A DNA stretch of 13,297 nucleotides, from assembly GCA_021817875.1 (NCBI GenBank), contig JAKAFQ010000051.1, positions 1 to 13,297 of the forward strand. The letters run 5' to 3'. The DNA is from Pseudomonadota bacterium (GTDB lineage: Bacteria > Pseudomonadota > Gammaproteobacteria > Steroidobacterales > Steroidobacteraceae). This document shows, piece after piece, positions 520 through 13,297 of the stretch. The position numbers and the translations under genes were made by a program. The notes beneath the pieces were generated by a model. The model did not search any database. It was not told the origin of the DNA and saw only the letters and a program-made list of their open reading frames with translations. The stretch's first letter is position 1; every line of letters starts with the position of its first letter.

Positions 520-909
520 TTAAGACAGAGCCCGACTCATGACGAGCGTGTCGCAGAACTGCTCGAACCGGACGATCTGCCCATCGCGAACGTCCCACAC
601 GTGCAGCGAACGGCAGCGCATCGGCTTTCCGGTTTTGACGTACGTCCCGGTGTAGTGACCGGTGGCAACCACGCTGTCACCTGCATCGCGCAGTCTGTCG
701 AGGTGAAATGCATAGTCCAGCCACTCGGTGGCGAGCCGCGTGAATACTCTGGATACCACGGCAGCCGGTCCATGGTAGGTACCACCGTACACCGAGCCTT
801 CCATCTCTATCCAGCATACCTGCGGCGCGAGCAGCTGCGGTATATCCTCGACCCGGCCGGATTCCGCCGCGTCGTAGAAGGCTTTGACGACTTCGAGGGC
901 CGTTTCCAT
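520..909 (-). CDS. SnoaL/NTF2-like protein, last gene of the SDR-MoaF unit
   Basis: A 129-residue protein of the nuclear-transport-factor-2-like (SnoaL) fold, the usual length for a single cone-shaped alpha+beta barrel domain. Hallmarks are the N-terminal helix (VVKAFYDAAESG, 7-18), the GGTYHGPAAV turn at 42-51, and the strand pair SLHVWDVRDGQIVRFEQFCDT at 101-121. Family members include small-molecule isomerases, cyclases, dehydratases and ligand binders. The pocket chemistry cannot be read from sequence, so the activity is unknown. There is no signal peptide, which suggests a cytoplasmic protein. The ATG shares its A with the TGA of the upstream moaF-like gene (TGATG), and a GGAG lies 9 bases before it inside that gene, so the two are very probably translated together. 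This links it to the same pathway as the SDR and MoaF proteins. Confidence 0.87.
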   Translation of the reverse strand: METALEVVKAFYDAAESGRVEDIPQLLAPQVCWIEMEGSVYGGTYHGPAAVVSRVFTRLATEWLDYAFHLDRLRDAGDSVVATGHYTGTYVKTGKPMRCRSLHVWDVRDGQIVRFEQFCDTLVMSRALS

Positions 910-1697
910 CAGACGGGCTCCGTTCCGGGTTCGTAATGAGTGATCGATGCCTTTTGGATGAAGGCGCCTGCGTTGCGATTCTCGATGCGGCCCTCACCGC
1001 TCAATCCGAGGAACTTGCCTGTGGAACGCAGATCGCGGAAATTGTAAAAGAATACCGAAGCAACCGGAATGATGAATTCGCGGAAGGCAAACACGTACTG
1101 ATCCTCGTCGAACTTCCATGTGGTTGCCAGGTCCACATCCCCATGGCCACGCTGCTCGCCGACCAGGCACTGCCAGCAATAGCGCTGCGAGCTCAGGTAC
1201 ACGTGCTCGTACAGATGGACCGGACTGTAGCGGTAGAACGCCCGCAGACCGATCAGGTCGCGCGTCGGGCCGGGGACCGGGCTGCCCGGCGCCGCGACAC
1301 GGGCGTCGACCACGCCCGCCGTGAAGTGCTGCTCAACCAACGGTTCGCGTTCGATGCGGCGCTCACGCACGCGCTGGCGCACGGACATCGTCCGATGCGT
1401 CAGGGTGTTCATCACCACCGTGAGCGCCTCCCGCGGCCTGGACGAGAACGTCATATCGATGAAGTATGTCGAGGGAGCGACCCGGACCGCGTCATAGCGG
1501 ACGTCACCGTGCGGCGCGAGCCCATCGTCCCACAGGACGCGGCCTGCGCTCTGAAAGCCGAGACGCAGGCGCTCTGCGCCGAAGGTCAGCTCGAACGTCC
1601 GACCGGCGAGATCCTGGGTGGAAGGCAGGCGGTTCGTGTCGATGCCGGCCGCGAAGTCCTCGTATTGCTTCCAGTCGTCCGGTGTGTCGTTCGCCAT
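909..1697 (-). CDS. moaF: MoaF-family two-domain protein
   Basis: A 262-residue protein that I recognise as the MoaF family, with an N-terminal domain (about 25-115, starting LAGRTFELTF) and a C-terminal domain (about 145-255, with YSPVHLYEHVYLSSQRYCWQC and a YVFAFRE strand). Both look like calycin/lipocalin-type beta barrels. The ATG at 1697 is preferred over an in-frame TTG at 1715 because GGGGG sits 7 bases before it. Many databases label this family molybdenum cofactor biosynthesis, but no cofactor gene is present here. From memory, moaF was first named in the Klebsiella monoamine regulon, next to an SDR gene called moaE, and the same pairing occurs here. The gene follows the SDR stop by 26 bases and overlaps the NTF2-like gene by one base. 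A role in binding or converting a small metabolite is inferred; its enzymology is unknown. Confidence 0.83.
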   Translation of the reverse strand: MANDTPDDWKQYEDFAAGIDTNRLPSTQDLAGRTFELTFGAERLRLGFQSAGRVLWDDGLAPHGDVRYDAVRVAPSTYFIDMTFSSRPREALTVVMNTLTHRTMSVRQRVRERRIEREPLVEQHFTAGVVDARVAAPGSPVPGPTRDLIGLRAFYRYSPVHLYEHVYLSSQRYCWQCLVGEQRGHGDVDLATTWKFDEDQYVFAFREFIIPVASVFFYNFRDLRSTGKFLGLSGEGRIENRNAGAFIQKASITHYEPGTEPV

Positions 1698-1723
1698 GAT
1701 ATGACCCCCAAGCAACTGCCCGA

Positions 1724-2515
1724 TCAGTCTGAAAACGCCAGGGTCGGCAGATCAACGACGCCAGCGCCACCGTCCACCACCACGATCGCGCCGCACATCA
1801 TGGCGGCGTCCTCCGAGGCCAGGAAGCAGGCCACGCTGGCGATTTCCTCGGGCCGCGCGGCCCGGCGCAGCGGCACGTGTTTCGTGGCAAGCGCGTAGGC
1901 ATCGTCGATGCTCGCAAGACCATGTTTCTCCCGGAGCGCCTCCATCTGTTCGTCCGCCATCGCTGTCCGCACCCAGCCCGGACAAATTGCATTGATCCGC
2001 ACACCGCGCGCACCGTAGTCCCTGGCAATCGAGCGAGTGAGCCCCGTCAGGGCGTGCTTGGTCGTGACATATCCCATGACGTCCGGCCCAGCGAACAGGC
2101 CCGCGATGGACGAGACCACCACGACACTGCCCCGCTGCTCGATGAGATCGGGCAGACACTCCCGTATGGTCACGACTGCCGAAGTGAGGTTCGTGCGCAC
2201 GGCGAGCGCCCAGCTCCTGTCGTCGGTGGCGAGCGCATCACCGACACCATGACCGCCGGCGTTCGCCACGAGAATGGTGAGCCGACCGAATTGCGCGCGG
2301 GCCAACCGGATGGCCGCGCGCACGGAGTCGGCCTCCGCGGCATCGCCACAAAAAAACGCGCAACCAAGCGTCTTGGCAGTGGACTCGAGCGGCGTTCGCC
2401 GCCGGCCCATGATGATGGCGCGTCCCCCTTCCTCCGTGATCCGCCGGGCAACCGCGGCGCCGATTCCGGTGCCGCCGCCCGTGATCAGAGCCACTTGCCC
2501 TTGGAATCGCTTCAT
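1724..2515 (-). CDS. Short-chain dehydrogenase/reductase (classical SDR)
   Basis: A 263-residue classical SDR of normal length that would oxidise or reduce an alcohol/ketone with NAD(P)(H) in the cytoplasm. Visible motifs are the Rossmann glycine motif TGGGTGIG (12-19), NAGG (85-88), the catalytic Asn in RTNL (Asn109), Ser135/Ser136 in SSIAG, and YVTTK giving Tyr149 and Lys153, followed by the CPGWVRT loop (178-184). GRRR (37-40) after the second strand hints at NADP(H) preference, which is an inference. The ATG at 2515 is chosen because MKRFQGQVALITGG is the canonical SDR N terminus and GGTGG lies just upstream. A frame extending further upstream only reads back through the regulator gene. 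It is the first gene of the SDR-MoaF-NTF2 unit. The substrate is unknown. Confidence 0.93.
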   Translation of the reverse strand: MKRFQGQVALITGGGTGIGAAVARRITEEGGRAIIMGRRRTPLESTAKTLGCAFFCGDAAEADSVRAAIRLARAQFGRLTILVANAGGHGVGDALATDDRSWALAVRTNLTSAVVTIRECLPDLIEQRGSVVVVSSIAGLFAGPDVMGYVTTKHALTGLTRSIARDYGARGVRINAICPGWVRTAMADEQMEALREKHGLASIDDAYALATKHVPLRRAARPEEIASVACFLASEDAAMMCGAIVVVDGGAGVVDLPTLAFSD

Positions 2516-2604
2516 TCGCCCACCACCCTGTTGGTCGGCGACCCGGAATGAGCTGCCGCCGTACCGGGGAATCGTACGAACATACGCGCCTCCCGACAGT
2601 GCCG
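2516..2604 (-). promoter_or_regulatory. Likely promoter/operator region of the SDR-moaF-NTF2 unit
   Basis: This is the gap between the regulator's probable terminator and the SDR start. A promoter is expected here if the terminator works. The only clear symmetry is a perfect 8-bp palindrome, TCGTACGA, at 2572-2579, inside an AT-richer patch (2569-2585). On the minus strand this patch contains TATGTT as a weak -10-like sequence, with no good -35. It is an obvious place for the neighbouring AraC-family protein to bind, but no direct-repeat half sites typical of that family are convincing by eye. Confidence 0.3.
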
Positions 2605-2638
2605 AAAAGGAACCGGTTGCCCACCACCGGGGAACCGG
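2605..2638 (-). terminator. Probable Rho-independent terminator after the AraC-family gene
   Basis: On the minus strand, 8 bases after the regulator's TGA, CCGGTTCCC pairs with GGG-C-AACCGG. This gives nine base pairs with a single bulged C and a 7-base loop. It is followed directly by TTCCTTTT, a short interrupted T tract. Placement right behind a stop codon and ahead of an 89-base gap supports a terminator. The T tract is imperfect, so termination may be partial and some read-through into the SDR unit is possible. Confidence 0.5.
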
Positions 2639-2645
2639 CGCGGCC

Positions 2646-3617
2646 TCAATGGCCGCCGACCAGGGTTTTGCGGCGCCGTTCCGAGGGGGCATGTCCGAAT
2701 CGCTCACGGAATACGCGGGCGAAATGCGTCGTATTGTTGAATCCCCATTCAAAAGCGATCGCCGAAATGGTCTTTGCGGCCTGCGCACGGTCGCCGAGAG
2801 CGCGGTGACACTCTTCGAGCCGGCGACGCAGGATGTATTTGCCGAGCGATTCCGCTTCACAGGCATACAGCTTGTGCACGTAGCGCGGTGAGATCCTGAA
2901 GTGGCGCGCGATCTGCGTCGGCGTGAGATTCGGATCGCGCAGGTGCGCGTCGACGAAGCGCCCGAGACGCAGCCTCCAGCGAGTCTGCGTGGTCGACTCG
3001 TCGCTCGGCCCGTCGGCCGATTCCAGAAACGCCGCCGCCAGCAGATTGCACACCGAGTCCGCAAGACGGTCCCCGATCAGAGGCGACGGCGACACCCGCC
3101 ATTGCTCCCACAGGAGGGTCGCAAACCGGGCGGCGAGCAAACTGCCGCCGTGCTTTGCGGGCATGTGCCGGTTGATGTAGACCTCCGGCATCGGCAGACG
3201 CCGTTCGAGCAGAGGTTGCGGGATGCGCAGCACGAGCATGGCGTTGTCGCCGCCCAGCAGCAGCTCACAAGGCAGCGTATTGTCGCACAGCACGAAATCC
3301 CCGGGCCCCAGCAGCACCTCGCGGCCGGCCTGGCGGTTGACGCAGGTTCCGCCGGCCTGCAGGTGAATCAGATACGCCGCGGCGTCCGAGCGGACGGGCG
3401 AGGGATGAGAATGCACGACTCGCGTGGGCGTGGACGTTGCCTCCACGAAGCGGATGCCACCGACTTCGGTCGCCCTGAGGCTGGCGTCGAAGGCGACATC
3501 GGGCGACGGCTCGACGTGCAGGCGAGTGATGAGACCGGAGGCGTGTTCATCCCATGCCTCCACCTTGCGGGGCGCGGCCACACCCCGCGTGGAAAAACTC
3601 ACCAGCTCCGCACTCAT
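2646..3617 (-). CDS. AraC-family transcriptional regulator
   Basis: A 323-residue cytoplasmic DNA-binding protein. The C-terminal AraC/XylS domain (about 217-315) has both helix-turn-helix units: LTPTQIARHFRISPRYVHKL (231-250) and TISAIAFEWGFNNTTHFARVF (283-303), closing with the family signature FRERFGHAPSE. The N-terminal 200 residues resemble the AraC-binding-like ligand domain found in regulators such as FeaR (LIHLQAGGTCVNRQAGREVLLGPGDFVLCD region, 83-112). The ATG at 3617 is chosen because MSAELVSFSTR starts where such proteins usually begin. The frame is open further upstream, but that part is Arg-rich and contains a hairpin. The ribosome binding site is weak (GGAC, 8 bases). It sits between the MFS gene and the SDR unit, all in the same direction, so it probably controls one or both in response to their substrate. 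Confidence 0.9.
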   Translation of the reverse strand: MSAELVSFSTRGVAAPRKVEAWDEHASGLITRLHVEPSPDVAFDASLRATEVGGIRFVEATSTPTRVVHSHPSPVRSDAAAYLIHLQAGGTCVNRQAGREVLLGPGDFVLCDNTLPCELLLGGDNAMLVLRIPQPLLERRLPMPEVYINRHMPAKHGGSLLAARFATLLWEQWRVSPSPLIGDRLADSVCNLLAAAFLESADGPSDESTTQTRWRLRLGRFVDAHLRDPNLTPTQIARHFRISPRYVHKLYACEAESLGKYILRRRLEECHRALGDRAQAAKTISAIAFEWGFNNTTHFARVFRERFGHAPSERRRKTLVGGH

Positions 3618-3693
3618 GTTCGCAAGTCCATCGTGTTCGCCAAGTCCGGAATCACCGGCCGCGCAACGCCGCTGTCGCGACGCTGGGCGCCGC

Positions 3694-3713
3694 CCCGCCG
3701 GTTCTCCGGCGGG
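3694..3713. repeat. Perfect 8-bp stem-loop between the MFS and AraC genes
   Basis: CCCGCCGG and CCGGCGGG flank a 4-base loop (AGAA on the minus strand). It is 135 bases after the MFS stop and 77 bases before the regulator's start. There is no T tract on either side, so it is not a classical intrinsic terminator. It could limit read-through, stabilise the 3' end of the transporter message, or overlap the regulator's promoter. The rest of the 231-base gap (3618-3848) shows no gene. Confidence 0.4.
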
Positions 3714-3848
3714 CATGAATCGAGCCCCGCGAGCCCTGCGTTCATCAACCCCCCCGTGGCGTCTGGAGGCGCGCCGGCTGGGTTTCCCCCTTTGACACGC
3801 TGACGCATCGGGCGGCTCCGGCACCTGGCGCGTTTCTCATCGGTGCCC

Positions 3849-5117
3849 CTATGGAGAGCTGGGCTGGCGCTCCTTTGCCTTGGCCTTGCGGAGCACCGCG
3901 GTACGGCGCGGCGCGGTTTCAATGAACGCCGCGCTGATGACGACCCCCAACAGCAGCCCCGCCAGGGAGAACACCACGACATTCTGGATGCCGTAATGTT
4001 GCGCGATGTAGCCGGCGATCATCGGCCCGATCCCGCCGCCGAAAATCTCGCCGGTGCCGGAGGCGATGCCGATGGCCGAGGAGGTGAGCTGCGCCGGCAC
4101 GGCCTCGGTGGCCACCGGACCGGTCAGCAGCGACAGCACCCCGTTGCCGAAGAACGATACTCCCCCTAGCAGCAGAAACAGCATGAGCGGCTCGACCCCG
4201 GTGCGGATGAAACAGTACAGCAGCACCGCTGCCCCCGTGAAACACAGGATGGCCGTGCTCCTGCGACCGATCAGATCCGAGAGTGCCAGCATCGCGATGC
4301 CGCCGAGGAATCCGCCGACGCCCAGTCCGGAGGTGACGAAGCCCATTTGCACCGCGCTCATGTGCAGGTAATCGACCAGGTAATTGGGTATGAATGCGCC
4401 CAGCACGAATATGCAGCTCATGCCGCACATCATGCCGAGCATGCTGAGCACCACGTTGCGTGAGCGAAACAGGTCGGTCCAGGGCAACGATGGCGCACGT
4501 GGACCGGCCGCGGCGGAGCGCTGCAGATGCGGTGGCTCACGAATCACCCGGTACACGAATACGGCAAGAATGAACCCCGGGATCGAGACGCAGAAGAATA
4601 CCCAGCGCCAGGAGGGCACCACCGCGAGCAACTGAGTGGCGATGATCGGTCCGAGCGCCAGGCCGAACAGCGAGAAGCCGCTGAGCTGGATCCCCTGGTT
4701 GAAGCCGCGGCGCTTCGGATGCGAGGCTTCCCCGGTCAGCGCCACGCTGGTGGACAGGAAAGCGCCCTCGGTGCCGCCCATCACGGTCCGGATCGCGACC
4801 AGCATGGCCACTCCGCTCACCATGCCGGTCACGCCCGCCATGCAGGAGAACACCAGCAGCGCGGGAATCAGGATCCGTCGCCGCCCGATGCGGTCGGAGA
4901 GATTGCCCATCAGCGCCGAGAACGTCCCCCAGCCGAGCGACAAGGCCCCGACCGCATAGCCGAGATCCTGATAGGTGAGGTGCAGATCGCGCATCATGGT
5001 GGGGAACAGCGGCGCGATGATCCACCGATCGAGTCCCACCAGCCCGAAACCCAGAAACAGCAGCAGCACGGCCTGCCACTCGTAGGTGGTATCGAACTTG
5101 GCGTCGACGCCGCTCAC
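3849..5117 (-). CDS. MFS transporter
   Basis: A 422-residue inner-membrane transporter of the major facilitator superfamily with about 12 hydrophobic segments, the first at 15-30 and the last at 380-398. The loop 2-3 motif GNLSDRIGRRR (71-81) and its second-half counterpart LSDLIGRRS (279-287) identify the family. The LDR (29-31) in helix 1 is reminiscent of proton-coupled organic-acid symporters such as the aromatic-acid group, but the substrate cannot be assigned. The GTG at 5117 is chosen because GGAGAGG lies 5 bases upstream; longer in-frame starts add a hydrophilic, non-membrane leader. This start overlaps the stop of a possible 36-residue upstream ORF (GTGA). It precedes the AraC regulator and SDR-MoaF-NTF2 unit in the same direction, suggesting it imports or exports their substrate. 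Confidence 0.9.
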   Translation of the reverse strand: MSGVDAKFDTTYEWQAVLLLFLGFGLVGLDRWIIAPLFPTMMRDLHLTYQDLGYAVGALSLGWGTFSALMGNLSDRIGRRRILIPALLVFSCMAGVTGMVSGVAMLVAIRTVMGGTEGAFLSTSVALTGEASHPKRRGFNQGIQLSGFSLFGLALGPIIATQLLAVVPSWRWVFFCVSIPGFILAVFVYRVIREPPHLQRSAAAGPRAPSLPWTDLFRSRNVVLSMLGMMCGMSCIFVLGAFIPNYLVDYLHMSAVQMGFVTSGLGVGGFLGGIAMLALSDLIGRRSTAILCFTGAAVLLYCFIRTGVEPLMLFLLLGGVSFFGNGVLSLLTGPVATEAVPAQLTSSAIGIASGTGEIFGGGIGPMIAGYIAQHYGIQNVVVFSLAGLLLGVVISAAFIETAPRRTAVLRKAKAKERQPSSP

Positions 5118-5224
5118 GAGCACCTCTCCGTTGCTTCGCTGGTGCGCGCAGCGCTCACCTGGCGCACCGCATGCTCCGCTGTGCCGCTCCATCGCCCGCG
5201 CCCGAATTCTGACGGTCTGTTCAT
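5114..5224 (-). CDS. Possible 36-residue leader ORF coupled to the MFS gene
   Basis: A short frame that starts at an ATG with a very good ribosome binding site (GGAAGG, 7-base spacer). It encodes 36 residues beginning MNRPSEFGRGRW and ending EATERCS. Its TGA overlaps the transporter's GTG start as GTGA, and the transporter's own GGAGAGG lies inside its last codons. The peptide has no signal sequence, membrane segment or recognised domain. It could act as a translational coupling or regulatory leader, or be chance. It is better supported by its start signal and exact overlap than by its amino acids. Confidence 0.42.
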   Translation of the reverse strand: MNRPSEFGRGRWSGTAEHAVRQVSAARTSEATERCS

Positions 5225-6331: not shown

Positions 6332-6820
6332 TCAGCCCTTTTCCTTCTCCAGGGAAGAGACGATCCGTTGCAGCAGGTGAATCAACAGCGGTTTGTGCAT
6401 CTCGCCGACGATCTGATCGAGCCGCCGGTCGTGCGCCTGGGCGTGTTCCGTCAGAATCTCGAGTTGCTTCCTGCCGAGCGGAGTGAGATTGAGAACATGG
6501 GCCCGGCCGTCAGTGCGCGAACGCTTGCGTGTGACCAGGCCGTGCTTCTCCATGTCCTTGAGCGCTAGAGCCAACGTCGACTTGTCACGGCCGTCGGCAC
6601 GACTCAGCTCGGACTGATTGATGCCCGGATTTTCGTTGATCAGGCAGAGTATCGCAAATTTTCCCGGGCTGGTATCGCTGTCATCGACCCTTTGGGCAAA
6701 GGCTCTAAAGGACAGTTCCTGCGCACGCCGCAGCTGAAAGCCGATGTAATTCTTCAGAGGTCCCAAGTTTGCGCCTTTCGTGTGGTCCGGTGCAGTGTGA
6801 TGTCTGGCCTGCTTCGGCAT
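6332..6820 (-). CDS. MarR-family transcriptional regulator
   Basis: A 162-residue winged-helix repressor-type protein of typical MarR length. The N- and C-terminal helices (about 20-45 and 125-160, ending SLEKEKG) would form the dimer interface. The DNA-binding part runs from TSPGKFAILCLINENPGINQ (50-69) through the recognition helix DKSTLALALKDMEKHGLV (79-96) to the wing RTDGRAHVLNLTPLGRK (102-118), which contains the family's conserved D-x-R. The ATG at 6820 is favoured by GGAGGA 5 bases upstream, the best ribosome binding site in the window. MarR proteins usually repress nearby or divergent genes and release DNA on binding aromatic or CoA-type ligands. Here no gene is immediately adjacent, so the target is unclear and self-regulation or control of the transporter unit are both possible. 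Confidence 0.93.
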   Translation of the reverse strand: MPKQARHHTAPDHTKGANLGPLKNYIGFQLRRAQELSFRAFAQRVDDSDTSPGKFAILCLINENPGINQSELSRADGRDKSTLALALKDMEKHGLVTRKRSRTDGRAHVLNLTPLGRKQLEILTEHAQAHDRRLDQIVGEMHKPLLIHLLQRIVSSLEKEKG

Positions 6821-6908
6821 GTTGTCCTCCAGAAGGCTGTGGCCGGCCAGCAGAGGGCCGACGCGCGCCGACTCAGGTTGGAGAATGCGGCGCACCGCGC
6901 TCTATTGT

Positions 6909-7184: not shown

Positions 7185-8537
7185 TCAGCGGCGTGCCACC
7201 GGCGCCGGTGGCAGGAAAGTCGGGTCGGTGAGCGGCATCTCGGTTACCGGACCGAACTCCTGCAACTGTCCACGGATGCGCGCGGCGTCCCCGATCGCCA
7301 CGATGACCACCGCATCCGGCTGCGGAAACGCCTCCACGATCACCTCGCGGGCCGCCGTCGGATCGACTGCCGCGAGGTGTGCGCCATACTCGTCGATGTA
7401 GGCGGTGCCGAGCCCGTAGAACTCGATTTCCGCGATCATCGCCGCCCAGTCCGCGGCGGTTTCGAGCCCGAGCGCGTACTGGCCGAGCGTGTAGGCCCGG
7501 GCCGAGTCCAGCATCTGCGCCGTCACCCCCTCGGCGTGCAGGCGCGTCAGCGCGGAAAGCGCAATGCCGATCGCCCGGCCGGTATTGCCCGCCTCGACGA
7601 AGGAGCGGATGGCGAAATCCCCGGGGACGCTGCCGCGGACGAACCCTGAACGCGCCCCGTACGACAGTCCCGATTTGATGCGCAGCTCGGCGTTGAGCAA
7701 CGAGGTGAATCGGCCGCCGAACAGCGTATTGACCAGGTCGAGCGCCGCGCGCCGCCGGTAGCCCTTCTCGACCCCGATGCTGCCGATCCAGAAGTGCGTC
7801 TGTGTCGATCCGGGCGAGTCCACCAGCAGCACGCGCCGCCCGGCCGCCACCGGCTGCGCAACCGCAGACAACTGCACCGGCGCCCTGCGCCAGTCTGCGA
7901 ACGCGCTGCGGGCCGCCGTCTCGATCCGCCGTGCATCGAGGTCGCCGGCCAGAACGAGAATCAGCCTGTCGGCACCGAAATGCTGCCGGTAACCCTCCCG
8001 GACGTGATCCGGATCGATGGCCGCGAGGGACGTCTCGCTGCCGAACACCGGCCGGCCGTACGGGTGCACACCGAACAGCAGCGCCCGCCCGTAGACATCG
8101 AGGAGCTCCGCGGGCTCCGAGTCCTTGGCGGCCTTGATGAACTCGATCTGCCGCTGGCGCAGGTGCTCGAACTGCTCACGCTCGAGTCTCGGACTACGCA
8201 GTGCATCAGCCACGAGCTCCAGCATCAGCGACTGATCGCGAGACAGAAACTGCGCCCGGATGGTCAGGGCCTCGATCCCGGCCGCGGCGCCGAACGCGCC
8301 GCCGACGCCCTCCACCGTGTCCGCGAACGCATAGGCGTCGCGTCCGCCGGCGCCCTTTTCGAGCAGGCCGGCGACGAGAGAAGCGACGCCCGGGAGCGCC
8401 GCGGGATCGGTGAGCGCCCCGCCGCGCATCACGGCATGACACGCCACGAGCGGCACATCGCGCCGGGGCATCAGGATGAGAGTGGCGCCGTCATCCAATG
8501 CGAGGCGTGTATGCTCCGGCACCCGCACAGCCGTCAT
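7185..8537 (-). CDS. M16 peptidase-family subunit, catalytically inactive
   Basis: A 450-residue M16 (insulinase/processing-peptidase) protein with both halves of the fold. Aligning its GVASLVAGLLEKG (50-62) with the neighbour's GLAHFFEHMMFNG shows His to Ser53, Glu to Ala56 and His to Gly57, so it cannot bind zinc. It keeps the second-half substrate motif LRIKSGLSYG (285-294), with Arg286 and Tyr293. This pattern is known for the non-catalytic subunit of heterodimeric M16B proteases and mitochondrial processing peptidase. The ATG overlaps the stop of the catalytic subunit (ATGA), and there is no good ribosome binding site of its own, so translation is probably coupled. No signal peptide is seen. 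A 20-bp palindrome overlaps its last codons. It is the last gene of the operon. Confidence 0.92.
   Translation of the reverse strand: MTAVRVPEHTRLALDDGATLILMPRRDVPLVACHAVMRGGALTDPAALPGVASLVAGLLEKGAGGRDAYAFADTVEGVGGAFGAAAGIEALTIRAQFLSRDQSLMLELVADALRSPRLEREQFEHLRQRQIEFIKAAKDSEPAELLDVYGRALLFGVHPYGRPVFGSETSLAAIDPDHVREGYRQHFGADRLILVLAGDLDARRIETAARSAFADWRRAPVQLSAVAQPVAAGRRVLLVDSPGSTQTHFWIGSIGVEKGYRRRAALDLVNTLFGGRFTSLLNAELRIKSGLSYGARSGFVRGSVPGDFAIRSFVEAGNTGRAIGIALSALTRLHAEGVTAQMLDSARAYTLGQYALGLETAADWAAMIAEIEFYGLGTAYIDEYGAHLAAVDPTAAREVIVEAFPQPDAVVIVAIGDAARIRGQLQEFGPVTEMPLTDPTFLPPAPVARR
7194..7213. repeat. Perfect 20-bp palindrome at the 3' end of the inactive M16 gene
   Basis: TGCCACCGGC followed by GCCGGTGGCA, fully self-complementary, lies within the codons for the last eight or so residues of the peptidase subunit. 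In RNA it would form an 8-bp GC-rich stem with a GCGC loop just before the stop codon, with no T tract after it. It may protect the message 3' end or pause transcription ahead of the downstream hairpin. Codon use for a Pro/Ala-rich tail may explain part of it. Confidence 0.5.
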
Positions 8538-9895
8538 TCGCCGGCGCTTGCGGCCGGTTCCTGGATCAGCATGCCGACGGTGCGTCTGCTGCGATCCAGG
8601 ATCTGTTCGGCGACCGCCCGCACCTGCGCGCGGGAAACCTGCGCGAGACGCGCCGGGGCGTCGAACAGTCGGGCCCACTCACCCTGGAACACCTCGTACT
8701 CCCCGAGCATGTGCGCCTTGCCATCTATGGTGGCGAGCTTCTTCCAGAAGCCCACGGCAGCGAGATTCCGCGCGCGTACGAGTTCAGCCTCGGTCACGCC
8801 TTCGGACGCGATCGCCGACAGCTCGCGATCGAGCGCAGCGAGTGCGGCTTCAGGCGCGCTCTCCTGCGGCAGCGTCAACGACAGCCACAGCAGTCCCGGA
8901 TCGAACCCCTCCTGCCAGTGTCCGCCCACCTCGATCGCGAGCCGTTGATCTTCCACCAGCGAGCGGTGCAGACGCGAGGCATCGCCCTCCACCAGCACCG
9001 ACAGCAGCAATTCGATCGCCGGGCCGCGCGGATCGGCGGCGGCGGGCGCCTTGTAGGCGCACTGCAGGAGAGGGGTTTGCGCCTTGCGCCGGATGAGCAG
9101 CCGCCGCTCGGCGAGCTGCTCGGGCTCGCGAATCTGCACCGGTACCGGCGGCGGCTGGGTGGGGATCGGCTCGAAGTAATCCCGGGCCAGCGCCAGGGCG
9201 CGCTCGGGATCGACATCGCCGGCCAGAGTCAGCGTCAGGTTGTTGGGTGCATAGTAGGTCCTGTAGAAAGCCTGCAGGTCCTGCATCCGCCAGGACCGGA
9301 TGTCTTCCGGCCAGCCGATGGTCGGGAAGCGATACGGATGCGTGAGAAAGGCGGTTGTCTGCACGTGCTCGGCGAGCAGCCCGTGATTGTTGTCCTCCAC
9401 GCGCAGCCGCCGCTCCGAGCTCACCACGTTGCGTTCGCTCTCGATCAGCTCGGGCGCAAAAGCGAGGTTCGCAACCCGGTCCGACTCGAGGTCGAGCACC
9501 AGCTCGAGCGCGCAGGAGGGAAACCAGTCCTGATACACCGTGACGTCGTCGCTGGTGAAGGCGTTGTTGGCGCCTCCCTGCGCCTCCATCAGCCGGTCGA
9601 ACTCGCCCGGGGGGTGCCGGCGGGTGCCGTTGAACATCATGTGCTCGAAGAAATGCGCCAGGCCCGTGATGCCCGGCGCCTCATTGCGGCTTCCAGCCCG
9701 TACCCAGAGGTTCAGCGCCACGTTGGGAATGTGGTGCACGGGCCAGACGATGACCCGCAAACCGTTGGTGAGAGTCGCCGAGCGCACGAACTCCCGCCCC
9801 GCGAGTTCGGGAGCGCGGGCGGCGGGCAGGCGGTCGAGGCTGGCGCGTCTTCGCATGCAGTCAGTGTACGCCTGGGGCACCGCTGCCGAGGACAT
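8534..9895 (-). CDS. M16 zinc metallopeptidase, catalytic subunit
   Basis: A 453-residue M16B-type peptidase. The inverted zinc motif HFFEH (81-85) gives ligands His81 and His85 and the catalytic base Glu84; Glu161 in VVSSERR, 76 residues later, fits the third ligand. The second half (about 260-445) contains SRLHRSLVEDQRLAIEV, where the Tyr of the usual substrate motif is missing; that motif is intact in the downstream subunit. The two are therefore probably one heterodimeric protease acting on peptides or small unfolded proteins. The ATG at 9895 is chosen for GAGAAG 6 bases upstream; an ATG at 9856 is possible but has a poorer site, and longer versions would overlap the hydrolase. No clear signal peptide is present, so a cytoplasmic site is likely but unproven. 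It follows the hydrolase by 79 bases. Confidence 0.93.
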   Translation of the reverse strand: MSSAAVPQAYTDCMRRRASLDRLPAARAPELAGREFVRSATLTNGLRVIVWPVHHIPNVALNLWVRAGSRNEAPGITGLAHFFEHMMFNGTRRHPPGEFDRLMEAQGGANNAFTSDDVTVYQDWFPSCALELVLDLESDRVANLAFAPELIESERNVVSSERRLRVEDNNHGLLAEHVQTTAFLTHPYRFPTIGWPEDIRSWRMQDLQAFYRTYYAPNNLTLTLAGDVDPERALALARDYFEPIPTQPPPVPVQIREPEQLAERRLLIRRKAQTPLLQCAYKAPAAADPRGPAIELLLSVLVEGDASRLHRSLVEDQRLAIEVGGHWQEGFDPGLLWLSLTLPQESAPEAALAALDRELSAIASEGVTEAELVRARNLAAVGFWKKLATIDGKAHMLGEYEVFQGEWARLFDAPARLAQVSRAQVRAVAEQILDRSRRTVGMLIQEPAASAGE

Positions 9896-9974
9896 GCCGC
9901 ACTTCTCTGTCACGTAGGGGATACGCACGGATCCCCCGGAAGAAGGCCCCCGAGAATGCGCCCCGGGGCAGCGG

Positions 9975-11060
9975 CTACGCGACTTCTTCGGCCGGAGCCT
10001 CGAGCGATACCGCACACGCCCATGACTCGAGCGTCAGCTCTGCAACGACACGCCGCTCCGCCCACGTCGGTCCGCTGAGCCGCTCGAGGAAGCCACAATG
10101 TCCGCCGCGGCGCGTCACGACGATGTTCAGGCAGGGTGGCCGCATCAAGTGGAACAGCCCGGCCGGGGGAATGATGGGGTCGTCGAGCGAGGTGATCAGC
10201 GTCGAGGGAACTTCGAGGGTCTCGAGCCGGCGACCGGTGAGCGAATAACCGTCGAGGTATTCGTCCAGGTTGGCAAAACGGGTGTAGCGGCGCACGAGCT
10301 CGGCCGTCAGGCGCCGCAAATCTTTCGTACCTCGCAGGTCCCGGAAATCGTAATCCTCAGGCCAGGCATGCTGCTTTTTCCTGAGCGATCGCCACCACTT
10401 CCTCGCAAAATACAGGGAGTAGCCGCGGAATCCGCTTTCGAGCGCGACCAGAGTCTGATGGGGATCGAGCACCGGCGACACCGCGACGATCCGGACCAGG
10501 TCAAGGCCGGCCGCCCGTGCCTCGGCGCCCGCCCGCAACAGAAAATTACCGCCCAGCGAAAAGCCGACCAGCCGGAGGGGACGTCCGGTCAGCCGCTGCA
10601 ATTCTCGGAGCGCACCCACGACCTCGGGCAGGCGGCAGGAATGGAACAGGCCGCGGTTGAGGCGGTGGGTTTCGCCGTGGTCGCGCAGATTGAGTCGCAG
10701 CACGTCGAAACCGCGCTCGAACAGCTGCTGCCCGAGCGACAGCACGTAGAGCGAATCCGCGCTGCCTTCCCAGCCGTGCAGGAGCACCACGGGCGCGCCC
10801 TCCGCCTGGCGCGAGCGGAAACACTGCAGCCGAACGCCGTTGCCACAGTCGAGCAGCAGTTCACGCTGGGCGGCCAGCAGCGGCGCCGCCCGGCGCACGA
10901 TCGGCCTGCGGCGCAGCCCGATGCTGGCGAGCATGGACTGCAGGTGACGGTTGCTCAGCCAGCGCGGCGGCCGGAAATCCGCCTCCGCAAGCCAATCGCG
11001 CGGAAGGGTCGGCGGAACCGTTTGTCCGACACCGGCGTACCGCGCCCGTTTGTCTGCCAT
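9975..11060 (-). CDS. yheT: YheT-like alpha/beta hydrolase
   Basis: A 361-residue alpha/beta-fold hydrolase of the YheT/ABHD-type group. The sequence shows the oxyanion turn LHGWEGS (94-100), the nucleophile elbow GFSLGG with Ser168, the acid in SLDDPIIPP (probably Asp294) and the catalytic His321 in RGGHCGF. The segment FRPPRWLSNRHLQSML (29-44) is a family hallmark near the N terminus. Related proteins are esterases or lipases of unclear natural substrate. The ATG at 11060 is supported by AGAGG 7 bases upstream; a longer frame is open but lacks similarity. It is the first gene of the minus-strand operon with the two M16 subunits and is divergent from the ydbH-like gene, which hints at an envelope or lipid-related role (inference). 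Confidence 0.9.
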   Translation of the reverse strand: MADKRARYAGVGQTVPPTLPRDWLAEADFRPPRWLSNRHLQSMLASIGLRRRPIVRRAAPLLAAQRELLLDCGNGVRLQCFRSRQAEGAPVVLLHGWEGSADSLYVLSLGQQLFERGFDVLRLNLRDHGETHRLNRGLFHSCRLPEVVGALRELQRLTGRPLRLVGFSLGGNFLLRAGAEARAAGLDLVRIVAVSPVLDPHQTLVALESGFRGYSLYFARKWWRSLRKKQHAWPEDYDFRDLRGTKDLRRLTAELVRRYTRFANLDEYLDGYSLTGRRLETLEVPSTLITSLDDPIIPPAGLFHLMRPPCLNIVVTRRGGHCGFLERLSGPTWAERRVVAELTLESWACAVSLEAPAEEVA

Positions 11061-11283
11061 GCTGCCGCCTCTGCCGGCTCTCTCAAGTGCGGTCCACAGT
11101 GTAGCGTAGCGGCAGGCAGGCCGTGCTGGCCGCAAACCCGGGTGGCGTTCCCGGGGTGCGCCCCGCTCGCGATCCGATCTGCCGGGGCAGTCGCTTTCAT
11201 CGGGGTGGCGGAACGTGCAGTATGGTTGGTACGGGATCAGCGCGGCAGCAGGGCCGCGACGGCATCCGAGCGATGATCGATCG
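11061..11283. promoter_or_regulatory. Divergent promoter region between the hydrolase operon and ydbH-like gene
   Basis: These 223 bases must contain promoters for two divergent units, or at least their leaders. On the minus strand TACACT (about 11098-11103) is a 4/6 match to a -10 box but has no matching -35 at a proper distance. On the plus strand a TATGGT-like -10 (11221-11226) has no good partner. The end of the region repeats ATCG (11275-11282). No palindromic operator stands out. Confidence 0.4.
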
Positions 11284-13297
11284 ATGAAGCGTCTGTTGCA
11301 GTCAGCCCGTCATGCGGCACCGTTGCTGTTCTTCCTCGCGGCGGTTCGACCGGCCGGGGCGTTCGAGCGGCTGGTGCTCAGCGTGGGCCACGTATCCTCG
11401 CCGCTCCTCGTGCTCACCGGCGGCACAGTGACGCTTCGCCTCGACTCCACGTCGCCTGGGCTGGAGGTCCGCGCCGACACCCTGAGCGTGCGGCGGCCCG
11501 GGTTGCCGGTGCTACGCCGGATCGCGCTCACCTGCGCGATGGTCCGCCTGGGCGGACCGCTGTATGCGTGCCGCGGCGGACGATTATCGGCACTGGCCGG
11601 CGGAACGGTCGGGGTGATCCGCGCGACGCTCTCCGGGAAGTACGATCCCACCCGTAAGACCCTGCACGTCACCGCCTCGCGGGTCCCGCTGGCCGGGGGA
11701 AGCGTGCGGCTCGTGGCGCTCACTCACTCCGGCACGTGGGCTTTTTCGGTGACGGCGTCCCGGATCGATCTGGCGCGTGCCGCGCGGCTCGCGCGCCCGT
11801 GGTTCACCCTTCCGGACGGCTACAGCGCCACAGGCCGCCTGGACGCACGGATCACCGTGACCCACGATCCCTTGCTGGCGGTACGAATTGCGGCGCGGAC
11901 CGCAGACCTCGACTTCACCAACCCGGCTGGAACGGTTGCCGGGCAACAGCTCGGTGCGTCACTCAGCGGCACGCTGCTGCGCGAGGGCACCAGACTGAGG
12001 CTGGGCCTCGCCCTGCGCGGTTCGCGGGGGCAGGCACTGGCAGGCCCCGTATTCCTGGATCTCGCGGCCCATCCGCTGACGCTTCGGGCCCGGCTGAGCC
12101 GGGACGGCACCGGGCCGGTGTACGTAACGCGTCTCGCTCTGGCGCAACAGGGCGTGATCGACGCCGAGGCACACGGCGTCGTGGCACTGAGCCCCCGTCC
12201 AGAGATCGAGACCGGTAGCATCAAGGTCGCTCACCTCTTTTTTCCCGGCACGTTTGCCACTTACCTGCAGATGACGCTGGCTGCGAAGGCGCAGGGCTCG
12301 ATCACCAGCAGCGGGCAAGCGAGCGGGGAGGCGTGGATATCCCACGACGCCATCACCCGCGTCGACGGGACGCTGCGCAACTTCGGCTTCGACGATCCGG
12401 TGTCGCGGCTGTTCGTGCGGCACGCCGACGGCAGCATCCATTGGGCGGCCGCGTCAGGCAGCTCGGTCCTGCCGTCGCACCTCAGATGGAACCGCTTCGG
12501 GGCGTATGGCCTTTCCGGCGGCGCGGCGCAGCTCACCTTCCTCGCCTGGAAGCGCAACTTCGCGCTGCTCGGCGGCAATGCGCGCCTGCCGGTGTTCAAC
12601 GGCGCCATCCTCATCCACACCCTCGTCGGGCGGAACCTCGGTCTGCCTCAGGCCACATTCGATTTCGATGCCGACCTCACTCCCATCAGCATGCCGCGGC
12701 TGTGCCGGGCGTTCGGCTGGCCCATCATGAACGGACAGCTTTCCGGACACATTCCTCTGGTGCGTTACCGCGATCACCAGCTGACCTTCGACGGCGACCT
12801 CGTGGCCCGGGTTTTCGACGGCACCATCACCGGCCGGCGAATCCGCCTGCAGAACCCGCTCGGCCAATGGCCGCAGCTGTCGGCAGACGTCGAGGCACGG
12901 GGACTTGATCTCGGGCTGGTCACGCGCACTTTCGCCATCGGCTCGATCACCGGCCGGGTGGACGCTGACATCCGCGGACTGCAGCTGTTCGACTGGTCGC
13001 CCGTGACCTTCGACGCCCGGGTCTACACCATGCCGGGCGACCGCTCGGCGCACCGGATCAGCCAGAAGGCGGTCACCCGCATCGCCGCCCTGGGCGGCGG
13101 CGCCGGAGCGGTCACCGCGGCACTGGAATCAGGCTTTCTGCGCTTCTTCCACACCTTCCACTACGGGCGCCTGGCGATCGGCTGCCGGCTTCGCAATCAG
13201 GTTTGCCGGATGTCGGGGGCGGGCCCGGCGCCGGACGGCGGGTACTACCTCGTCCAGGGCAGCTGGCTGCCGCGGCTCGACATCATCGGCAATGTGC
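11284..13297 (+). CDS. ydbH: YdbH-like AsmA-superfamily envelope protein (3' end missing)
   Basis: The frame stays open for 671 codons and runs off the right edge. The N terminus (MKRLLQSARH, then a hydrophobic stretch ending PAGAF at 22-27) looks like a short signal peptide or membrane anchor. The body is rich in alternating hydrophobic beta strands, as expected for the long beta-groove of AsmA-like proteins. The C-terminal part is diagnostic of YdbH: ISQKAVTRIAALGGG (592-606), then FLRFFHTFHYGRLAIGCRL (618-636) and GGYYLVQGSWLPRLDIIGN (652-670). Little should be missing. In Escherichia coli YdbH works beside TamB and YhdP in moving phospholipids between the inner and outer membranes, and is followed by ynbE and ydbL. 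It is somewhat shorter than the E. coli protein (about 880 residues, from memory). The ribosome binding site is weak. Confidence 0.84.
   Translation, partial: MKRLLQSARHAAPLLFFLAAVRPAGAFERLVLSVGHVSSPLLVLTGGTVTLRLDSTSPGLEVRADTLSVRRPGLPVLRRIALTCAMVRLGGPLYACRGGRLSALAGGTVGVIRATLSGKYDPTRKTLHVTASRVPLAGGSVRLVALTHSGTWAFSVTASRIDLARAARLARPWFTLPDGYSATGRLDARITVTHDPLLAVRIAARTADLDFTNPAGTVAGQQLGASLSGTLLREGTRLRLGLALRGSRGQALAGPVFLDLAAHPLTLRARLSRDGTGPVYVTRLALAQQGVIDAEAHGVVALSPRPEIETGSIKVAHLFFPGTFATYLQMTLAAKAQGSITSSGQASGEAWISHDAITRVDGTLRNFGFDDPVSRLFVRHADGSIHWAAASGSSVLPSHLRWNRFGAYGLSGGAAQLTFLAWKRNFALLGGNARLPVFNGAILIHTLVGRNLGLPQATFDFDADLTPISMPRLCRAFGWPIMNGQLSGHIPLVRYRDHQLTFDGDLVARVFDGTITGRRIRLQNPLGQWPQLSADVEARGLDLGLVTRTFAIGSITGRVDADIRGLQLFDWSPVTFDARVYTMPGDRSAHRISQKAVTRIAALGGGAGAVTAALESGFLRFFHTFHYGRLAIGCRLRNQVCRMSGAGPAPDGGYYLVQGSWLPRLDIIGNV

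Follow-up and report, generated by a model that had tools for sequence, protein, structure and literature searches.

An SDR-MoaF-NTF2 gene unit in a Steroidobacteraceae bacterium and its possible role in the catabolism of hydroxyphenyl C6-C2 compounds

Contig JAKAFQ010000051.1 of a Steroidobacteraceae bacterium (GenBank assembly GCA_021817875.1) was analysed over 13,297 nucleotides (the 13.3-kb window), the left part of which contains five consecutive minus-strand genes that code, in the 5' to 3' direction, for a major facilitator superfamily (MFS) transporter, an AraC-family regulator, a short-chain dehydrogenase/reductase (SDR), MoaF and an NTF2-like protein (Table 1). Gene calls and Pfam searches, in which all five proteins score far over the family cut-offs, agree with an original prediction of five same-strand genes of these types, and the predicted 26-base gap between the SDR and MoaF genes and 1-base overlap of the MoaF and NTF2 genes are both present. 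The AraC and SDR genes are 130 bases apart, and the MFS and AraC genes 231 bases. Position 5224, previously given as the MFS start, lies in a different frame from the MFS open reading frame (ORF); a GTG at 5117, which is preceded by GGAGAGG and yields 422 aa, is the more likely start, and the ORF list has an ATG at 5192. Rfam and tRNA scans of the window gave no match.

Table 1. Features of the five-gene segment of the window.
Feature	Coordinates	Strand	Description
NTF2-like / SnoaL_2 protein	520..909	-	129 aa; last gene of unit; Pfam SnoaL_2
MoaF	909..1697	-	262 aa, two barrel domains; PF10703 and PF17409
MoaF C-terminal barrel, phenolic-acid-decarboxylase-like	936..1277	-	Residues 141-254; Y155, Y157, Y163, E164, W175, E207
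MoaE-type SDR	1724..2515	-	263 aa
AraC-SDR gap, likely promoter region	2516..2645	.	130 bases; putative promoter role
AraC-family regulator, FeaR-like	2646..3617	-	323 aa from ATG; listed ORF longer
MFS transporter	3849..5117	-	Likely start GTG 5117; alternative ATG 5192; non-conserved neighbour of module

One-genome-per-species contigs were scanned with a 27-sequence MoaF alignment; this gave 275 confirmed loci, of which the top 80 were kept. At 73 of these 80 loci a position rule places SDR and NTF2 genes on either side of MoaF, in the order SDR, MoaF, NTF2, so that the suggestion of a conserved catabolic module of these three genes passes the test of co-occurrence. The exceptions are three loci without an NTF2 gene (L001, L003 on a short contig, and L055), three without an SDR gene (L004, L060 and L076), and L002 with neither, although the L060 SDR was missed by the rule and is found at 311 bits. 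The window SDR is ~60% and the NTF2-like protein ~43% identical to the best match per locus (medians for the 77 and 76 loci with a match). The conserved unit is SDR-MoaF-NTF2, not the five genes, and from its sequence relationships it appears to be an NTF2-extended version of the moaEF operon.

The SDR shares 52% identity with the Klebsiella aerogenes NCTC10006 protein that bears the annotation MoaE and whose gene directly precedes moaF. Identity to the window SDR is 50-60% for the SDRs encoded next to MoaF in Agrobacterium, K. aerogenes, Azoarcus and one Pseudomonas plasmid, whereas it is 27-33% for five other SDRs from annotated MoaF loci. The window protein has a C-terminal VDLPTLAF, and a C-terminal motif VD[VLI]PT[LIM]A[FY] is present in 83 of 87 MoaF-adjacent SDR ORFs (with some loci retrieved twice); 2 of 8 other SDR ORFs, both from one MoaF locus (L060/L090), also have it. 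It also has the classical SDR set, with the T12-G19 glycine motif (TGxxxGxG), N109, S136, Y149 and K153 invariant in a seven-sequence alignment. We therefore assign it, on these similarities, to a MoaE type. The K. variicola SDR in the 27-33% group also adjoins a MoaF, and the pairing of MoaF with a MoaE-type SDR is thus not universal.

Both domains of MoaF score over the gathering thresholds (PF10703, 84.6 versus 23.3 bits; PF17409, 133.7 versus 22.1 bits), and the structure model has a predicted local distance difference test (pLDDT) score of 89.7. In the model the C-terminal barrel adopts the fold of the phenolic acid decarboxylases (PADs; PF05870), with Y157, Y163, E164 and E207 (and Y155 in the window protein) at the positions of PAD Tyr21, Tyr27, Glu28 and Glu72 (and Tyr19); the window MoaF thus has counterparts of the catalytic Tyr19, Tyr21 and Glu72. 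Residues Y157, Y163, E164, W175 and E207, at PAD catalytic positions, are kept in all 66 aligned MoaFs. The two PADs tested pass the Pfam MoaF_like model and the Azoarcus MoaF passes the PAD model. PAD sequences were taken from a phylum sample in which 4 of 299 genomes matched (three were used, the fourth lacking the searched motif); in a phylum sample searched with MoaF alignment A1, 8 of 398 genomes matched at E <= 1e-20, four of them at cassette level. PAD roles, and the hydration of styrenes through a quinone methide, are described in PMC10176493, PMC13358373, PMC5488193 and PMC10915792. MoaF thus looks like a relative of enzymes that work via a reactive quinone methide.

The NTF2-like protein (Pfam SnoaL_2, 66 bits versus a cut-off of 27) gives a model with a pLDDT of 94.9, whose nearest solved relatives are uncharacterised NTF2-like proteins (Foldseek best match 3ec9, template modelling score 0.97), followed by TerC and ketosteroid isomerase. 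Y12, E35, Y86, R100 and H103 are invariant among 26 aligned cassette NTF2s, a set that would fit an isomerase or dehydratase; H11 is nearly invariant in the other cassette NTF2s and is F in the window protein.

Relatives of the two upstream genes are distributed differently (BLASTP E <= 1e-5), with an MFS relative at one of the 80 loci (25% identity) and AraC relatives at 60, position disregarded, at a median identity of 32%. On these counts the MFS gene, and probably this exact AraC gene, would seem to have been recruited separately from the cassette. The MFS is not favoured as part of the module on the same count, and the idea that the module has its own transporter fails with it: 79 of 80 loci lack an MFS relative, and the relatives mostly have LIV-type ABC genes, some having APC permeases. 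The MFS protein itself (Pfam MFS_1, 193 bits) has D-galactonate and aromatic-acid/H+ symporters as its best NCBIfam models, under cut-off. The AraC protein contains AraC_binding_2 and HTH_18 Pfam domains, and its best NCBIfam match is FeaR (NF007243; 136 bits, under the curated cut-off of 199), which is also the best match, likewise under cut-off, of the L076 AraC. FeaR regulators control the phenylethylamine/tyramine regulon. A dedicated AraC regulator was predicted too, and this stands in part: many relatives likewise have a FeaR-like regulator, although its position and orientation are not those of the window gene. The gap between the AraC and SDR genes, likely the promoter region of the SDR-MoaF-NTF2 unit, contains a 10-nt inverted repeat (arms at 2613-2622 and 2629-2638); a scan of the gap for sigma-70-like promoters found none.

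The neighbourhoods of the relatives are richer than that of the window, as judged from gene clusters within 10 kb of MoaF, several loci being cut off by contig ends. GMC oxidoreductases are present at 70 of 80 loci by clustering and 69 by reference match, and a search with one of them found, among its solved relatives, alcohol oxidases as well as an oxidoreductase that inactivates chloramphenicol. Aldehyde dehydrogenase superfamily members are also found at 70 of 80 loci, in a cluster that mixes several types; the two tested by NCBIfam (from L065 and L078) match phenylacetaldehyde dehydrogenase StyD best, under cut-off. LIV-type ABC genes are present at ~61 and AraC-type genes at 55 of the 80 loci. 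Homoprotocatechuate genes (one or more of HpaD, E, F, G, H and I, as judged by reference match) lie within 10 kb at 29 loci, among them loci of Rhizobium, Shinella, Maritalea, Cucumibacter, Ramlibacter and Roseateles. In annotated records, the Rhizobium etli pRetNXC12e cassette is accompanied by hpaE, hpaD, hpaH and hpaI, as is that of Rhizobium BT03, the Agrobacterium p1 cassette has an HpaB-like gene and hpaE annotated nearby, and hpaD is near the cassette in Roseateles XES5 (a record marked as unverified organism). In another phylum, on Paenarthrobacter aurescens TC1 plasmid pTC2 (L085/L119/L120), the distance from MoaF is ~10 kb for feaB, ~16 kb for hpaE and ~29 kb for a copper amine oxidase gene, and genes for an APH-type kinase, a class III aminotransferase and an aldehyde dehydrogenase are near MoaF. 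APH kinase and class III aminotransferase genes are each present at 17 of the 80 loci, and this pair may represent a further route by which amino alcohols enter.

The homoprotocatechuate link is also evident at the level of whole genomes. Among 199 genomes from the family of one carrier, nine have a cassette-level MoaF, and HpaE scores over its cut-off in 9/9 of these versus 41/190 of the others (one-sided Fisher p 2.2e-6, a value that overstates independence as the genomes are related). As a control, hmgA, which also serves in aromatic ring cleavage, shows no such bias (5/9 versus 108/190, p 0.67; counted at E <= 1e-60, with one of the 113 under cut-off). This cross-tabulation takes both 199-genome searches as the same draw, as their identifiers coincide. 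HpaE is on a different contig from the cassette in 5 of the 9 genomes, and the association therefore exceeds local synteny. In a second set, 28 loci without nearby HpaE led to 25 genomes (one, G203, also among the nine), and 23 of these 25 have HpaE elsewhere over the cut-off, one marginally (638.3-638.6 versus 638.35), a figure that stands without a matched background. One genome (L001 and L087) has two MoaFs, of which one is of the cassette type and the other, of a distant type, is ~16 kb from HpaE on the same contig. A weak hint in the same direction is that a Burkholderia thailandensis growth-phase proteome (PMC12322963) lists both 'MoaF protein' BTH_II1540 and 3,4-dihydroxyphenylacetate 2,3-dioxygenase BTH_II1732 as up.

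The original prediction held that the substrate could not be named, but the kinship of the SDR and MoaF with Klebsiella moaE and moaF, together with the gene context, points to 4-hydroxyphenyl C6-C2 compounds. Our leading interpretation, which we put forward tentatively, is that the unit acts early in catabolism, converting a 4-hydroxyphenyl or 3,4-dihydroxyphenyl C6-C2 compound to the (di)hydroxyphenylacetaldehyde and -acetate that feed the homoprotocatechuate meta-cleavage (hpa) route, with MoaF contributing quinone-methide chemistry. The substrate would most likely be an aromatic monoamine or its alcohol (of the octopamine/synephrine/norepinephrine or tyrosol type). The MFS protein would import it, the FeaR-like AraC would sense either this substrate or the aldehyde, and the MoaE-type SDR would oxidise or reduce the side-chain oxygen. 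MoaF would be a cofactor-free barrel enzyme in which Tyr157 (and Tyr155) hold the para-phenolate and Glu207 serves as acid/base, such that a p-quinone methide is formed or quenched, and the NTF2-like protein may complete a tautomerisation or dehydration. A more specific proposal, that MoaF and NTF2 dehydrate para-hydroxyphenyl carbinol amines (octopamine, synephrine, norepinephrine) via a p-quinone methide to hydroxyphenylacetaldehyde and the amine, we consider quite doubtful; an activity of this kind is known as 'synephrine dehydratase' (EC 4.2.1.88).

A number of observations weigh against a hydroxyphenyl C6-C2 pathway with MoaF as a PAD-like enzyme. The scanned genes of the window include none of the hpa, GMC or aldehyde dehydrogenase types, and its link to the pathway thus depends on orthology. 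The 80 loci were retrieved with two MoaF peptides, come mostly from Rhizobiales and are non-independent; HpaE over cut-off is absent from two of the 25 genomes of the second set (the Desulfobacteraceae assembly with L002 and the Burkholderiaceae assembly with L060); and a MoaE-type SDR is missing beside MoaF in Paenarthrobacter and K. variicola. Two Bradyrhizobium loci (L008 and L038) have thiolase-like and ChsH2-like/SDR fusion genes upstream, unlike the other loci, and three Burkholderiales loci (L070, L071 and L075) have MoeA-like genes downstream (one cluster, of which the L075 gene alone was checked by Pfam). Another context that does not fit is that at L076:9917-14885, with MoaF-NTF2-AraC, no SDR, and a nearby gene that matches syringate/vanillate O-demethylase models best. 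As for MoaF itself, the first of the 'twin' tyrosines (Y155 in the window) is F, H, N, Q or S in some cassette MoaFs, and PAD Arg49, which binds the substrate carboxylate, is not conserved, being replaced by H185 in the cassette group and mostly L in distant MoaFs, although the alignment is uncertain by one residue here; a basic residue, R183, lies two residues before H185 in the window protein and is not kept across all distant MoaFs. The window MoaF has no match to PF05870 up to the limit of E 10 (with filters dropping most matches above 0.1), and the Azoarcus match to the PAD model is mainly through the N-terminal barrel. Profile-profile comparison (hhalign) of MoaF with PAD is similarly weak, giving 0.4% for the C-terminal domain alone and 23-39% for the whole protein, with the alignment then on the N-terminal barrel, so the link was drawn from the fold, the Pfam cross-matches and the hidden Markov model register. 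Finally, ammonia and methylamine were unreactive as nucleophiles in PADs according to PMC5488193, which does not favour amine elimination.

MoaF and NTF2 could alternatively be non-catalytic, with MoaF serving as a lipocalin-like chaperone or binding protein for the transfer or sensing of the aromatic compound and the SDR as the sole enzyme. This seems rather unlikely, given the dense polar set kept at the PAD catalytic positions of the C-terminal barrel in all 66 MoaFs and the retention of E35, R100 and H103 in 26/26 NTF2s. The module might also act on aryl alcohols of lignin or phenylpropanoid origin (C6-C3 diols, beta-ethers); the SDR would then be a C-alpha dehydrogenase, GMC and aldehyde dehydrogenases would oxidise the terminal alcohol, MoaF and NTF2 would catalyse elimination, and the hpa route would be just one of the outlets. 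The prevalence of GMC genes near the cassette, the solved relatives of one of them and the O-demethylase-like gene at L076 would agree with such a role, as would LdpA, an NTF2-like protein that acts on lignin dimers; the HpaE association points to arylacetates, however, and the Klebsiella and Paenarthrobacter contexts are amine-related, and we regard the lignin-type role as unlikely. A steroid or terpenoid substrate is not favoured either, despite the thiolase-like and ChsH2-like/SDR genes at L008 and L038.

The five genes were originally seen as a self-contained system for the import, sensing and conversion of one undescribed substrate, and they are indeed co-directional with gaps of no more than 231 bases. 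With the MFS relative at a single locus, and with most relatives having further enzymes nearby (GMC, aldehyde dehydrogenases, an ABC importer, hpa genes at 29 loci) or the hpa route elsewhere in the genome (23 of 25), self-containment is improbable. A role for MoaF in molybdenum cofactor biosynthesis is scarcely credible: it has in its favour the database name ('molybdenum cofactor biosynthesis protein F'), the MoeA-like genes at 3/80 loci and the listing of moaF among cofactor genes in some papers (e.g. PMC8265622), but within the annotation of the 80-locus map no further family of cofactor genes is seen repeatedly, and PMC11540253 calls its moaF cofactor-unrelated, albeit as a transporter. 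The L075 MoeA-like gene adjoins threonine-pathway genes, perhaps the ordinary gene order of such genomes. The database name looks like a mix-up of moa for monoamine.

MoaF has been named since a 1995 operon paper, and its database names refer to molybdenum cofactor biosynthesis. Its function is now directly testable, through the PAD kinship, for which particular residues can be named, the regular pairing with a MoaE-type SDR and an NTF2 protein, and the HpaE association. A hydroxyphenyl C6-C2 pathway of the kind we favour would help to explain the uptake of aromatic amines or phenylethanoids by soil and root bacteria and would add another natural use of quinone-methide barrel chemistry. Were MoaF an amine dehydratase, it would provide a gene for the old 'synephrine dehydratase' activity, explain the presence of moaF in a monoamine regulon, and represent a cofactor-free enzyme of a new kind, related to the PADs and built of two barrels.

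The remainder of the window contains a MarR regulator gene (6332-6895, minus strand) with weak scores to the Saro_0803, BagL/FevM and HpaR models and no relative at any of the 80 cassette loci. To its right are an overlapping pair of M16-family peptidase genes (7185-8678 and 8534-10015, minus strand; YfmF/YfmH-like scores far under cut-off), a YheT-like alpha/beta hydrolase gene upstream of the pair (9975-11135), and a plus-strand 694-aa open frame (11215-13296) that runs past the window end and has a weak YdbH-like match under cut-off.

In the literature covered on MoaF, moaEF, monoamine and synephrine-type degradation, and PADs, with most subscription journals outside that coverage, no title or opening of an abstract assigns a reaction to MoaF or describes an SDR-MoaF-NTF2 module; MoaF is mentioned in gene lists, in a proteome table, as a fluoride-transporter moaF, and as a domain of short proteins that are exported. 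The moaEF operon is known, and the NTF2-extended triad, the homoprotocatechuate tie and the decarboxylase-like active site of MoaF were not found in the literature searched. The moaEF operon of the K. aerogenes monoamine regulon (Azakami et al. 1995, from the title as cited in PMC9386226) shares with the window a MoaE-type SDR gene directly before MoaF on the same strand, the MoaFs being 29% identical. It differs in that no NTF2 gene is annotated there and in that its neighbours are arylsulfatase genes and a 'monoamine regulon transcriptional regulator', rather than AraC and MFS genes; no arylsulfatase match was found among the nine main window proteins scanned. The R. etli pRetNXC12e and Agrobacterium leguminum p1 cassettes have the same SDR, MoaF, NTF2 order with short gaps and an adjacent AraC-type gene, but the latter is on the opposite strand, and both have a LIV-type ABC importer, an aldehyde dehydrogenase and hpa genes, with additional GMC, APH kinase and class III aminotransferase genes in R. 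etli. The monoamine/homoprotocatechuate island of P. aurescens pTC2, in an actinobacterium, shares MoaF (38%) and AraC with the window and has HpaI, along with the copper amine oxidase, feaB and hpaE, within ~29 kb of MoaF; it has an EthD-like gene after MoaF, and no MoaE-type SDR or NTF2 is annotated. PADs (e.g. FDC_Es and PAD_Bs) resemble MoaF in the C-terminal barrel fold and the catalytic residue positions, whereas MoaF is a tandem double barrel without Arg49 in place, and the window protein is not scored by the PAD model.

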